This document shows, in pieces, positions 9,528 through 16,170 of a stretch of 40,644 nt of DNA. The notes beneath the pieces were generated by a model, which saw nothing but the letters and a program-made list of their open reading frames with translations, was not told the origin of the DNA and did no database searches. Within the stretch, counting starts at the first letter, position 1, and each line of letters starts with the position of its first letter. This DNA is from Rhodothermales bacterium (GTDB lineage: Bacteria; Bacteroidota; Rhodothermia; Rhodothermales; Bin80), in assembly GCA_022821875.1 (NCBI GenBank), contig JAJECV010000021.1:1-40644 (forward strand), read 5' to 3'. Position numbers and translations under genes: made by a program.

Positions 9528-10667
9528 CTATCTGACCTCAATATTCTGTCCACTTGCAATATCTAACTCTTCCTCTGTATACTCAATGGCCCGAAGATCG
9601 CCATTCTTCCCCTCCAGACGTATCAGGGCGCAATTCGGTCCTTCAATTTCGTTGGCAGCACTTGCAAATGCTCTAATGCAATCAAAGCTGTGAGTTGTAG
9701 CCAGAACCTGAACGTTATACTCCTTTGCAGCATTCAATACCATGCTCCAAAAATTCTGTTGAACGGAATAATGAATTCCATTTTCTACTTCGTCAATGAC
9801 CAGAAAACCATCATGGCTAACCGCCAATGCAAGGCCGGTTGCGAATAAGCGACGAATACCATCACCAAGGCTCTTTAGCGGAACAGGTTGCACATGGTCA
9901 CGCAGCTTGACGGTAATCCGACGACCAAATCTGCGAAACTGGGTGCTATCTTCGATCACTGCGACACGATCTATCTTTTGCCCGGTTAGATTTATAGCCT
10001 TTAATACAAGGTCTTCTTGTGGAGTGAGTGCAATCTTATCCCAATAACCTGCTAACGTAGGATTATCTAGAAGGCCGGGGCCCAGTGATTCGCAGTTTAT
10101 AGGACTAGGCATATCCTTTGCACTAAGCCTTGTTCGTCGTAACGCCCGGGGTATGGGAGTAGGTAGATCGGCCCCTCTCAGACCGGGTATTTCGGTGAGC
10201 CACGGGAGTACAAATGCCGCGTTACGATATCCAACTCTCAGGGCTTGACTAGCCTCGAGATGAAATCTGGAGAACAGTTCCTGCTGCGGCTCGGGTAAAT
10301 CATTTATGCCAACCGTCTCAATACGGAGACAATCTTGGCTGGAAGCCGGGCCGACAGATGCTTTTTTATGATGCGTGGCATTTCTTCCGAAGAACAGAGT
10401 TCCGTAATCTGGAAATAGAAGACGGTCTTGATCTTCATCGAGAGCTTCCATACATTCTTCTCTGGAGTGAAGTAACTCTCGGAACATATCATGATGCCCG
10501 CGAGATGCGAATACACGGACTGCCTCCAGAACAGTCGTCTTACCGACACCATTTAGGCCGGCAATGAGGGTAACACGCCCTAAATTTCTAATTGTAAGAT
10601 GGCCGATCCCCCGAAAATTTTTAATTAATAAATCAGGGAGATGCAACCTGCTGCTATCCATACTCAA
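9528..10667 (-). CDS. AAA/ABC-type ATPase (OLD/RecF-like, no TOPRIM)
   Basis: The product is a 379-residue ATPase of the AAA_15/AAA_21 type. The N-terminus has a typical Leu-x-Ile-Lys-Asn-Phe-Arg-Gly-Ile strand. Walker A is Gly-Leu-Asn-Gly-Val-Gly-Lys-Thr (37-44), an ABC-like signature Ser-Leu-Gly-Asp-Gly is at 266-270, Walker B is Phe-Leu-Val-Ile-Asp-Glu (288-293), and a switch His lies in Ala-Thr-Thr-His-Ser (323-327). The region 50-260 between the motifs is variable and unrecognised. The C-terminus stops soon after the ATPase core, so there is no fused TOPRIM nuclease. Related proteins occur in phage-defence and DNA-repair loci, often with a nuclease partner, but none adjoins it. The function is unassigned. 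Confidence 0.82.
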   Translation of the reverse strand: MSMDSSRLHLPDLLIKNFRGIGHLTIRNLGRVTLIAGLNGVGKTTVLEAVRVFASRGHHDMFRELLHSREECMEALDEDQDRLLFPDYGTLFFGRNATHHKKASVGPASSQDCLRIETVGINDLPEPQQELFSRFHLEASQALRVGYRNAAFVLPWLTEIPGLRGADLPTPIPRALRRTRLSAKDMPSPINCESLGPGLLDNPTLAGYWDKIALTPQEDLVLKAINLTGQKIDRVAVIEDSTQFRRFGRRITVKLRDHVQPVPLKSLGDGIRRLFATGLALAVSHDGFLVIDEVENGIHYSVQQNFWSMVLNAAKEYNVQVLATTHSFDCIRAFASAANEIEGPNCALIRLEGKNGDLRAIEYTEEELDIASGQNIEVR

Positions 10668-12412: not shown

Positions 12413-12997
12413 ATGAAATCAAATTTTCTATTGATATTGGTTGCCCTGATACTTTGGACACCTCTGGTTGTGGCACAGGATGCAGAGTCAGAGGTCCGTG
12501 CATTCGTCACGCAGCGTGACAAGGAGATCAAGGCCGCAATTCGCGGGATGAAGGAGGATCCGGCCATGCGGGAGGTTGCACGCTCGCTGATCAATGATCA
12601 GATTGACTTTGAAGAGATGGGGAGGCGTTCGCTTGGTCGCTACTACGAGGATCTCTCATCGGAGCAGCGTCAGGATTTTATTGCAGTTTTTGGCGAGATT
12701 GTGCGTTCGCAGTCATTGGGGGACCTGTCTGTTTATGAGGCCCCGGTCACCATCAGGTCTGTGGAAGTTCGTGATAATAAGGCATCTGTGAGTACCATTG
12801 CGGAGATACGGGAGGCCGATGTAGATGTGCTGTACCGGTTGCACCGAAAGGATGATACGTGGTGGCTGTATGACATCATCATTGACGATGTCGGGACCGT
12901 AGAGGGCTATTCCATTTCGTTTCAGACGTATGTGCGTAAGCGCGGCTTTGATGCGTTCATGAAAAGTCTGCGCAAAAAACTTGCAGCGGCAGAATAG
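12413..12997 (+). CDS. MlaC/Ttg2D-like periplasmic phospholipid-binding protein
   Basis: The product is 194 residues with a signal peptide (about 1-21, ending Val-Val-Ala-Gln). The body matches the MlaC fold family: an Asp-Phe-Glu-Glu-Met-Gly-Arg-Arg-Ser-Leu-Gly-Arg-Tyr segment, a Gln-Arg-Gln-Asp-Phe helix and a late Trp-Trp-Leu-Tyr-Asp-Ile-Ile-Ile-Asp-Asp-Val strand region. MlaC shuttles phospholipids between outer- and inner-membrane Mla complexes; mlaE, mlaF and mlaD are not in the window. I chose the Met at 12413 because it directly begins the signal peptide, although the frame is open from 12362 inside tolC. Its last ~32 bases belong to the unit repeated downstream. Confidence 0.85.
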   Translation: MKSNFLLILVALILWTPLVVAQDAESEVRAFVTQRDKEIKAAIRGMKEDPAMREVARSLINDQIDFEEMGRRSLGRYYEDLSSEQRQDFIAVFGEIVRSQSLGDLSVYEAPVTIRSVEVRDNKASVSTIAEIREADVDVLYRLHRKDDTWWLYDIIIDDVGTVEGYSISFQTYVRKRGFDAFMKSLRKKLAAAE

Positions 12998-13167
12998 CAC
13001 AGTGTCGTGGAGCGCCGTGAAAAGGAGTGTGGGTGGAGGGGAAGATCGACCGCAGGTAGCAGGCTTGCCATGTCATGATACATGGCAGTGGAGACGGAGA
13101 ATGGCAAGGGGATCTGTAGCAGACCTGGAACCAAAATTATAAAAGCACATATACGTGTTTCCTCCAC

Positions 13168-13563
13168 ATGCTTTCAGATCATATGATCAATACGCTTTCG
13201 ATTGCCCGCAGGCTCTCCGAATCGGGGATTGACAAGAAACAGGCCGAGGTATATGCCGAAGTCATCGTAGATGCCGTTGCTGATGCGTTTGCGCAACAGG
13301 GCAAGGACATTGCAACCAAGGAGTTTGTGTATAATCAGATCAACATTGTACGTGGTGAGATAAAAGATCTTCGCGTCGACATGAACACCGAAACAGATGC
13401 TTTACGTGTTGAGATAGAGTCTGTCCGCGTTGAATTAAGCAACCTGCGCGGTGAGATGAATGCTACCGAAACCCGGATTATACGCTGGATCATTGGAGTA
13501 GGAATTGCGCTTGGAGGCATTGGGGTGGCCGGGGTCAGTATGCTGGTGAGCGTTTTAATGTAG
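13168..13563 (+). CDS. Small coiled-coil membrane protein, copy 1 (DUF1640/CCDC90-like)
   Basis: The product is 131 residues. The N-terminal third (Asn-Thr-Leu-Ser-Ile-Ala-Arg-Arg-Leu, then Gln-Ala-Glu-Val-Tyr-Ala-Glu) is helical. A coiled coil runs from about 55 to 100, with one copy of the heptad Glu-Ile-Glu-Ser-Val-Arg-Val (codons 82-88). A single transmembrane helix (about 103-130) ends the protein. This layout resembles the bacterial DUF1640 family, which is related to the mitochondrial CCDC90/MCUR1 proteins; the bacterial function is not known. It is the first of three tandem paralogs. It lies 170 bp after mlaC, inside the repeated unit. Confidence 0.82.
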   Translation: MLSDHMINTLSIARRLSESGIDKKQAEVYAEVIVDAVADAFAQQGKDIATKEFVYNQINIVRGEIKDLRVDMNTETDALRVEIESVRVELSNLRGEMNATETRIIRWIIGVGIALGGIGVAGVSMLVSVLM

Positions 13564-13820
13564 AGAGAAGCAAACTATTATATGTGATAGTGGGATTTTG
13601 CAGGGGGATGTTTATGTTTGGGGTCTGTGCAAAAAACTTGCAGGGGCAGGATAGCCACAGTGTCGCGGAGTGCCGTGACAAGGAATGTGGGTAAAGGGGA
13701 AGCAACTGAAGGGAGCAGGGTTGCCATGTCATGATACAGGGCAGTGGAGATGGAGAATGGCAAGGGGATCTGCAGCAGACCTGGAACCAAAATTATAAAA
13801 GCACATATACGTACATTCAC

Positions 13821-14195
13821 ATGCTTTCAAATCATAGGATCAATACGCTCTCGATTGCCCGCAGGCTCTCCGAATCGGGGATTGACAGGAAACAGGCCGA
13901 GGTATATGCCGAGGCCATTGTAGATGCCGTTGCCGATGCGTTTTCGCAACAGGGCAAGGACCTTGCAACCAAGGATTTTGTGTATAATCAGATCAACATT
14001 GTACGCGGTGAAATAAAAGATCTGAGAGCCGATGTGAACACCGAAATAGGGATTGTTCGCGTTGAATTGAGCAACCTGCGCGGTGAGATGAATGCTACCG
14101 AAACCCGGATTATACGCTGGATCATTGGAGTAGGGATTGCGCTCGGGGGCACTGTGGCTGCCGGGATCAGTATACTGGTGAGCGTTTTAATGTAG
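13821..14195 (+). CDS. Small coiled-coil membrane protein, copy 2
   Basis: The product is 124 residues from the Met at 13821, which aligns with the starts of the other two copies. The frame is open upstream to 13731, but that part corresponds to the noncoding leader of the repeat. It is nearly identical to copy 1, but the linker has no Glu-Ile-Glu-Ser-Val-Arg-Val heptad, which makes it exactly seven residues shorter. The C-terminal transmembrane helix is kept. All three copies keep open frames, which suggests they are expressed or duplicated very recently. Confidence 0.82.
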   Translation: MLSNHRINTLSIARRLSESGIDRKQAEVYAEAIVDAVADAFSQQGKDLATKDFVYNQINIVRGEIKDLRADVNTEIGIVRVELSNLRGEMNATETRIIRWIIGVGIALGGTVAAGISILVSVLM

Positions 14196-14452
14196 CGGGA
14201 AGCAAGCTATTATGTGTGATCGTGGGATTTTGCAGGGGGATGCTTATGTTTAGGTCTGTGCAAAAAACTTGCAGCGGCGGAATAGCACAGTGCCGCGGAG
14301 CGCCGTGACAGGGAGTGTGGGCAGAGGGGAAGATCAACCGCAGGCAGGCAACAGGGTTGCCATGTCATGATACAGGGCAGTGGAGACGGAGAATGAAAAG
14401 GGGATCTGCAGCAGACTTGGAACCAAAATTATAAAAGCACATATACATTCGC

Positions 14453-14890
14453 ATGCTTTCAAATCATAGGATCAATACGCTCTCAATTGCCCGCAGGCTC
14501 TCCGAATCGGGGATTGACAGGAAACAGGCCGAGGTATATGCCGAAGCCATCGTGGATGCCGTTGCCGATGCGTTTTCGCAACAGGGTAAGGACCCTGCAA
14601 CCAAGGATTTTGTGTATAATCAGATTAACATTGTACGCGGTGAAATAAAAGATCTGAGAGCCGATGTGAACACCGAAACAGGTGCTTTACGTGTCGAGAT
14701 AGAGTCTGTCCGCGGTGAGATCGAATCTGTCCGCGTTGAGATCGAATCTGTCCGCGTTGAATTAAGTGACTTGCGCGGTGAGATGAATGCTACCGAAACC
14801 CGGATTATACGCTGGATCGTTGGAGTGGGGATTGCACTCGGGGGCATTTTGGTCGCCGGGATCAGTGCTCTGGTGAGCGTTTTAGTGTAG
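14453..14890 (+). CDS. Small coiled-coil membrane protein, copy 3
   Basis: The product is 145 residues, the longest copy. The coiled coil carries three consecutive heptads Glu-Ile-Glu-Ser-Val-Arg-(Gly/Val) at codons 82-102, against one in copy 1 and none in copy 2. This gives exactly 14 and 21 extra residues. The N-terminal helical region and the C-terminal transmembrane helix match the other copies. The sequence after the stop codon is unrelated to the tails of units 1 and 2, so this is the distal boundary of the amplified segment. Confidence 0.82.
   Translation: MLSNHRINTLSIARRLSESGIDRKQAEVYAEAIVDAVADAFSQQGKDPATKDFVYNQINIVRGEIKDLRADVNTETGALRVEIESVRGEIESVRVEIESVRVELSDLRGEMNATETRIIRWIVGVGIALGGILVAGISALVSVLV
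14696..14758 (+). repeat. Three tandem 21-bp heptad-encoding repeats
   Basis: Three in-frame 21-bp units lie at 14696-14716, 14717-14737 and 14738-14758, the last two identical. Each encodes one coiled-coil heptad. The single equivalent unit in copy 1 is at 13411-13431. Replication slippage would lengthen or shorten the coiled coil without breaking the frame. Confidence 0.9.
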
Positions 14891-15213
14891 AGAAAAAAGT
14901 CACTGCCTTTTCGTCCGAAAAGTCCATTCCGTATCCATTCTGGAAGCGGACTTCCCGGTACAGAGGTATTCCCAATATCTGAGATATCCCGTGCTTGCTT
15001 ATTGTGTGTGACTGGGTTTGGGTCATTTTAAGCGGTTAATTTCGGGTTTGCATGCCTCGTTACCGGTTTTCCTGGATCCGAAAATGGTCATTCTCCATTC
15101 GCTGGATACCTTGTTTATTGCGCAACCTCATTCAGTGGAACAACAATTCATCCCAAAAACTGACCAATAGCGCAGGCAGGCGTATCTTAGGGCAGATTTA
15201 ATCCTATTTCTTT
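14891..15213 (+). other. Intergenic region with candidate promoter for the glycosyltransferase
   Basis: No gene was seen in these 323 bases. A small hairpin (14907-14912 with 14917-14922) follows the copy 3 stop but has no T tract. A TTTG at 15017-15020 and a TAATTTCG at 15037-15044 resemble the Bacteroidota -33 and TAnnTTTG elements, with a 16-bp gap, at the short edge of known spacing. Confidence 0.3.
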
Positions 15214-16170
15214 GTGACAACAGAAGGATACGTTCTGCATACCTACGGGAAGGAGGCGTATTTGCGGCATGCAATTGCTTCGGTTACGACCCTCCGCCGC
15301 TATGACAATGTGCGCCCCGTAGCGCTCTATTGCACAGACGCACATACTGAACTTCTTCGGCGTAATGGTCTGACGGACATCTTCACGCTTGTGAAGAAAC
15401 TGCCGGACAGAAATTGCTCCATCAACGGATTTAAGCATCATCTCCACGAATTCAAGCCGTGGGAGCGCAGTCTCTATGTGGACAGTGACATGATCTGGTG
15501 CCGGAATCCTGACTCCCTCTGGACCCAACTCTCGGTCTATCCCTTTACTGCGACTGGACTTGAGCGGGCCGATTTTTATTTTGGCGGTCCCAAGAATGCC
15601 GGTGTCATTCTGGAGTTTTTTCGCAACCGCCGCCGGCGTACACTGAAGCGTTTCGGATTGACGCATCTGCCTCGCGTACAGGCGGGCATGATGTATGCGG
15701 CAGACACAAAAGTCACGCAGTCCGTATGTGCATCGGCAGCGGAGTTTCATACGCGTGCCTCGGAAACGCATTTCCGTACAAGGCTCCTGGAAGGACGTAC
15801 AGAAGAGTCCTGCGAATGGAGTCTGGCGATGGCGATGAGTCGTATGGGACTCCCCGTCTATCATTGGTATCAGGGGGCAAACAGTCCTCAACTGGATTAT
15901 ATTCGGGGCATGACCGAGCACACAGATACATTTGAGCGGATCCTGTGTGACTATTATACGGATCGCTTTATTTATGAAATCCGGGGGATCAAGAATCCCC
16001 GGATTCGAACATTCTGTATGCGACTGGCCACGACGGTGCTCCGAAAACATGACCGGCTGAAGGTGACCCCGTTTGTTTTGCATTTTGGCTGGTTTCACGC
16101 AAAGCAGCCGTTCTATGATTTTGCAGATTGCGTGTGGGCGGAACTGACGGGCTCGGCAGCTACGCCCTGA
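15214..16170 (+). CDS. Putative nucleotide-sugar glycosyltransferase
   Basis: The product is 318 residues from a GTG start at 15214, the only start after the in-frame stop at 15199. The sequence has a GT-A fold layout: an N-terminal strand followed by Thr-Tyr-Gly-Lys-x-Tyr-Leu, a second strand (Val-Ala-Leu-Tyr-Cys-Thr-Asp), and a DxD-type metal and sugar-nucleotide site Tyr-Val-Asp-Ser-Asp-Met at about 88-93. The C-terminal half has a Glu-Glu-Ser-Cys-Glu-Trp-Ser segment and a Phe-Gly-Trp-Phe-His stretch. There is no signal peptide, so it is likely cytoplasmic. Donor and acceptor are unknown. Its 3' end overlaps the convergent gene by 11 bp. Confidence 0.68.
   Translation: MTTEGYVLHTYGKEAYLRHAIASVTTLRRYDNVRPVALYCTDAHTELLRRNGLTDIFTLVKKLPDRNCSINGFKHHLHEFKPWERSLYVDSDMIWCRNPDSLWTQLSVYPFTATGLERADFYFGGPKNAGVILEFFRNRRRRTLKRFGLTHLPRVQAGMMYAADTKVTQSVCASAAEFHTRASETHFRTRLLEGRTEESCEWSLAMAMSRMGLPVYHWYQGANSPQLDYIRGMTEHTDTFERILCDYYTDRFIYEIRGIKNPRIRTFCMRLATTVLRKHDRLKVTPFVLHFGWFHAKQPFYDFADCVWAELTGSAATP

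Follow-up and report, generated by a model that had tools for sequence, protein, structure and literature searches.

Tandem triplication of a CCDC90-like gene next to mlaC in a Rhodothermales genome

Organization of the repeated region

The window analyzed here, i.e. the whole stretch of 40,644 nucleotides, belongs to a Rhodothermales genome indicated in the following as G000; its sister species is represented by the Rhodothermales MAG jk18x9bins.87 (G004), and other relatives carry similar labels. Repeat finding and alignment over the 40.6-kb window located three head-to-tail units, starting at 12966, 13623 and 14254, each composed of the last 32 nt of an mlaC-like gene, followed by a leader some 165 bases long and by a gene matching PF07798 (CCDC90-like, formerly DUF1640). 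The features of the region are listed below.

12413..12997, + strand: mlaC-like gene, intact, PF05494 match; the repeat starts with its last 32 nt (12966-12997)
12998..13167, + strand: leader of unit 1, 90% identity to the leaders of units 2 and 3
13127..13151, + strand: promoter-like GGAACC-N16-ATA of unit 1, also conserved upstream of family genes located on other contigs or in sister genomes
13168..13563, + strand: CCDC90-like copy 1, 131 aa; PF07798, E 2e-11, 44.4 bits
13564..13622, + strand: post-stop tail 1, at the unit 1/2 junction; 88% identity to tail 2
13623..13654, + strand: non-coding mlaC 3'-end fossil, copy 2; 29/32 identical
13783..13807, + strand: promoter-like GGAACC-N16-ATA of unit 2, conserved in family upstreams
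13821..14195, + strand: CCDC90-like copy 2; PF07798, E 8e-11, 42.5 bits
14196..14253, + strand: post-stop tail 2, at the unit 2/3 junction, defined by alignment
14254..14285, + strand: non-coding mlaC 3'-end fossil, copy 3; 30/32 identical
14419..14443, + strand: promoter-like GGAACC-N16-ATA of unit 3, conserved in family upstreams
14453..14890, + strand: CCDC90-like copy 3, 145 aa; PF07798, E 2e-12, 48.0 bits
14696..14760, + strand: 21-bp in-frame tandem repeat, 3.1 copies, corresponding to the stalk heptad EIESVRV/G (TRF)

A preliminary description of the sequence had proposed a tandem triplication, with a unit including the 3' end of mlaC and a near-identical non-coding leader, and the alignments bear this out: pairwise identity between units is 91-94% for the 32-nt mlaC tail, 90-91% for the leaders and 90-93% for the coding sequences, so that similarity extends beyond the coding parts. 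When the whole window was scanned on both strands, the 32-nt end of mlaC matched the sequence at 14254 with 2 mismatches and that at 13623 with 3, the next-best site having 13; the 60 bases located 5' of 12966 do not resemble those found 5' of units 2 and 3. Because off-array matches are this poor and similarity stops abruptly at 12966, the left boundary within mlaC is sharp, far beyond chance, and the amplified segment does start inside the end of that gene, as had been suggested.

The stop codons of units 1 and 2 are followed by a tail of 58-59 nt, 88% identical between the two, and the sequence after unit 3 is unrelated, a distribution that had also been recognized. The tail is absent from the single-copy locus of G004, and searches of G000, G004 and G006 gave no other meaningful match to it; placing the end of the segment 58 bp after the stop is therefore accurate as a description of the junctions, not as the ancestral end. 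An origin of the tail from the DNA 3' of unit 3 was considered and discarded, the similarity being weak (p 0.04-0.75). For the leader, too, no meaningful match was obtained at other places in G000, G004 and G006, and an Rfam search of the region returned no element at E values up to 1.

An assembly artefact might be suspected in a draft genome of 147 contigs, but such an explanation is very improbable: the copies differ by 7-10% and carry copy-specific indels, the longest exact run common to two units is 65 nt, short enough to be resolved by a short-read assembler, and the flanks of the array are collinear with the G004 locus.

Elsewhere in the window, a gene on the minus strand (9528-10667) encodes a 379-aa AAA ATPase that matches PDC-M38A, a candidate defence family (E 6e-77), as well as AbiLi. 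At the corresponding site of G006 the flanking matches are separated by only about 100 bp, which looks like either an insertion here or a loss in G006.

The encoded proteins

The three reading frames are intact, and in profile searches each scores above the PF07798 curated cut-off of 33.5 bits; the best PDB match for PF07798 is human CCDC90B (6h9m). In units 2 and 3 the ATG usually serving as start in the family is now AGG, and an in-frame ATG remains five codons upstream. All frames being open, and dN/dS among copies ranging between 0.17 and 0.36, the copies are under purifying selection; private changes are most numerous in unit 1 (21/375).

In DUF1640 proteins an ATK-type neck motif, with consensus [aliphatic]-A-T-K-[polar]-[DE], opens the C-terminal stalk, the sixth position being D/E in the published beta-layer (PMC4786415). 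Units 1-3 carry IATKEF, LATKDF and PATKDF, respectively: ATK and the following polar residue are present and the sixth position is F, while unit 3 has a Pro at the aliphatic position. The AlphaFold monomer model of copy 3 contains helices at residues 9-18, 23-44 and 51-144, with a mean pLDDT of 76, and the C-terminal segment reads as hydrophobic. The product is predicted to be an oligomeric membrane protein of the head-neck-stalk-anchor type, where the [I/L/P]ATK[D/E]F neck would connect an N-terminal helical head to a coiled-coil stalk, and a membrane helix would form the C-terminal anchor. Copy 2, having a 21-bp in-frame deletion, is one heptad shorter than copy 1, and copy 3 contains 42 bases more than copy 1, i.e. 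it is two heptads longer; the predicted stalk would therefore change in length by whole heptads.

The locus in related genomes

Copy number at the locus, which the preliminary description had proposed to compare among relatives, varies. In G004, contig JAJECE010000030.1 contains the same locus with one unit, and its downstream DNA matches that following unit 3. In G006, G003, G007 and G008 the region from mlaC to the glycosyltransferase gene spans about 100-300 bp, and no CCDC90-like gene is found at the locus. The C-terminus of the mlaC product, SLRKKLAAAE in G000, is similar (SLRKRL...) in relatives devoid of the array; for this reason the two scraps are regarded as derived from mlaC and not the reverse, in keeping with the earlier view of them as non-coding fossils of its 3' end. 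From these comparisons it follows that a CCDC90-like gene already lay between mlaC and the glycosyltransferase gene before G000 and G004 separated. The genus of G000 is known from marine sponges; MAG bin80, from the sponge Aplysina aerophoba (PMC5649159), appears to be another of its members.

Other arrays and spread of the family

Across the genus, family members range from none to more than 10 copies per genome, partly organized in arrays; no member at all was found in G006, G003 and G008. Besides the array in the window, tandem arrays are present in G000 (C1, three copies; C77, about four, including truncated frames), in G004 (C127, two copies, at a contig end), in G009 (C161, three copies) and in G005 (C40, two copies). 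Within arrays of the family, stalk length changes by 7, 11 or 18 residues. The C1 copies are 160, 142 and 171 aa long, and those of C12 and C4 124 and 142 aa, with steps of 11 and 18 residues, which would also fit a coiled-coil register. In a tree of the head regions, copies from C1 and C127 pair across species, meaning that some arrays are older than the split, even though they differ in copy number.

The two further CCDC90-like arrays of G000 lie at L077 (3242-6357) and L078 (2455-5938), with a DUF433-like sequence, recognized by eye, in their vicinity. At L088 (2097-2936; C126 of G004) a CCDC90-like protein of 264-279 aa has a stalk made of 54-bp (18-residue) repeats; its counterpart in G000 (C120) is 138 aa long, and the difference of 126 residues equals exactly seven repeats. 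A 70-aa protein encoded at L118 (5998-6210) of Truepera bin119, from another phylum but the same sponge study, has a head 70% identical over 27 residues to that of unit 3, and exchange among sponge symbionts is possible. A viral scan yielded only two distant heads.

Age and history of the array

Synonymous divergence (dS) is 0.30 between units 1 and 3, 0.20 between units 1 and 2 and 0.19 between units 2 and 3; relative to the G004 copy, it is 0.22 for unit 1, 0.12 for unit 2 and 0.10 for unit 3. For comparison, five flanking orthologues of G000 and G004 diverge by 0.06-0.14, about 0.12, at synonymous sites (pooled pS 0.110). Unit 3 is therefore orthologue-like with respect to G004, while the pairs unit 1-unit 3 (p 0.0003) and unit 1-G004 (p 0.015) exceed the orthologue level (one-sided Fisher test against the pooled orthologues). 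Because units 1 and 3 have diverged at synonymous sites beyond the between-species level, the first duplication is probably older than the separation of the two species; judged from the same sites the triplication is not recent, and G004 has probably contracted to one unit.

It is also conceivable, though rather unlikely, that the triplication arose after the split from a single G004-like copy, unit 1 having evolved faster. Such a course would agree with the single unit of G004, which shows few private changes (3/193 leader sites and 0/375 CDS sites), and with the divergence of leaders between units, 9-10%, close to the 9.3% of intergenic sequences between species, a similarity owing to which non-coding DNA alone gives no pre-split date. 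However, the synonymous divergence of unit 1 from both unit 3 and G004 is about 2-2.5 times that of the five flanking orthologues, an excess that relaxed selection on the protein leaves unexplained, and the cross-species pairing of C1 and C127 copies indicates that arrays in this lineage can be older than the split. In the head tree, unit 1 falls outside a group formed by unit 2, unit 3 and G004, with weak support (0.44-0.67).

With the older duplication as the preferred reading, unit 2 may tentatively be seen as a hybrid of the outer units, generated by unequal crossing-over. Within the first 223 alignment columns it agrees with unit 3 at 3 of the 5 informative sites; after column 223 all 10 informative sites, as well as the tail, associate it with unit 1. 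This shift in site pattern, of the kind a crossover between units would leave, gives a Fisher p of 0.02, and the MaxChi mosaic test is not significant (p 0.24).

A common upstream element

The leaders contain a bipartite element, GGAACC-N16-ATA, which recurs in the family. The regions upstream of family members (n=40) fall into 14 clusters which do not align with each other; GGAACC or GGAAACC occurs within 80 bp in 33 of the 40 (10/14 clusters, four genomes) and in 7 of 330 control upstreams, these counts not being independent, as members within a cluster are related. The box is located 34-71 bases before the start codon, and is followed after 15-17 nt by [G/A]TA in 28 of 33 cases, where shuffling gave 4.5 on average and 12 at most. 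GGAACC is absent before family members in G005, G007 and, in one case, in G001. Each unit kept its own element, because the left edge of the duplication is located about 160 bases upstream of it. A TATAAA sequence, previously singled out as a possible shared promoter, does occur in each of the three units (at 13138 and the equivalent positions); as a promoter it was rejected, since it lies within the spacer of GGAACC-N16-ATA and is not found before other paralogs.

Promoters of ECF sigma factors are distinguished by an AAC -35 box and a CGT -10 box (PMC8103513), and by comparison with them the element is predicted to be an ECF-type promoter. The cognate, autoregulated ECF gene was not found, none of the 7 sigma-r4_2 genes being preceded by the element (0/7); this lowers the probability of the assignment but does not exclude it, since autoregulation applies to only about 55% of ECFs (PMC8103513).

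In Bacteroidota, A-rich leaders are favoured at translation starts, which, together with the result on sigma genes, leaves some room, albeit limited, for the element being a transcription-factor operator or part of the translation start region. As expected of a promoter, on the other hand, the spacing between boxes is nearly fixed (15-17 nt) while the distance from the start codon varies over 34-71 nt, and AAC, typical of ECF -35 elements (PMC8103513), occurs within the first box. In addition, a scan of 12800-15300 detected no sigma-70-like site, and intrinsic terminators and sigma-70 promoters between the units are no more frequent than in shuffled sequences.

A related sequence, GGGAACC-N-TGTA, is located 35 bp before a ferrochelatase-like frame of G000 (L150, C100) and recurs in G004 (L186, C130). 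Extension of the regulon by means of such matches, which involve ferrochelatase-like and FRG-like frames, among others, was abandoned, as they were too few and often internal to reading frames.

A model for the origin and role of the array

The observations are likely to be jointly explained by an old duplication followed by unequal crossing-over, acting on a gene for a membrane stalk protein, with an ECF-type promoter for each copy. In the ancestor of the two species, mlaC and the glycosyltransferase gene would have flanked a CCDC90-like gene provided with its own promoter. Two units would have arisen by a tandem duplication whose left breakpoint fell in the last codons of mlaC, upstream of the promoter of the gene, with mlaC remaining intact and a remnant of its 3' end preceding the new copy; the third unit would stem from a later event, for which unequal crossing-over between units is the most likely mechanism. 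Each copy would thus remain a full transcription unit headed by a bipartite ECF-type promoter, and the array would raise dosage and supply stalk-length variants under one stress-type regulon.

The tandem duplication is genuine, though of an ordinary kind, and affects an interesting, repeatedly amplified family. Its value is that of a pointer to this family, in which MCUR1/CCDC90-like genes are repeatedly amplified, mostly with one conserved promoter-like element, within one genus. A bolder and rather doubtful proposal is that an ECF-type sigma factor controls a regulon consisting mainly of tandemly amplified, stalk-varying CCDC90-like membrane proteins; if true, a sponge-associated Rhodothermales genus would possess an envelope system in which unequal recombination adjusts dosage and reach. 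No settled function was found in the literature for bacterial relatives of mitochondrial MCUR1/CCDC90B, and the question may be addressed through the regulon, the sigma factor and the natural presence or absence of the family within the genus.

Comparison with known systems

Like other members of the PF07798 family, which includes human MCUR1 and CCDC90B as well as prokaryotic proteins, the products are predicted to have an N-terminal head, an ATK-type neck and a terminal hydrophobic helix. They differ in the F at the sixth neck position, D/E in the published consensus, and in being encoded by multicopy, tandem genes whose length changes heptad-wise; furthermore, the array implies no mitochondrial partner.

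With ECF regulons the family genes have in common an AAC-containing, -35-like GGAACC box, followed at a fixed spacing of 15-17 nt by a -10-like GTA/ATA; here, however, the -10 box is [G/A]TA rather than CGT, and the set is made up of paralogs of one family.

As in bacterial tandem duplications and unequal crossing-over, the units are direct head-to-tail repeats with common boundaries, single or absent in relatives, which have a sharp edge in the neighbouring gene, leave fossils of its end and differ in copy number between sister species. In contrast to such cases, the units described here are old and diverged, and their junctions contain a short extra sequence of 58-59 bases.
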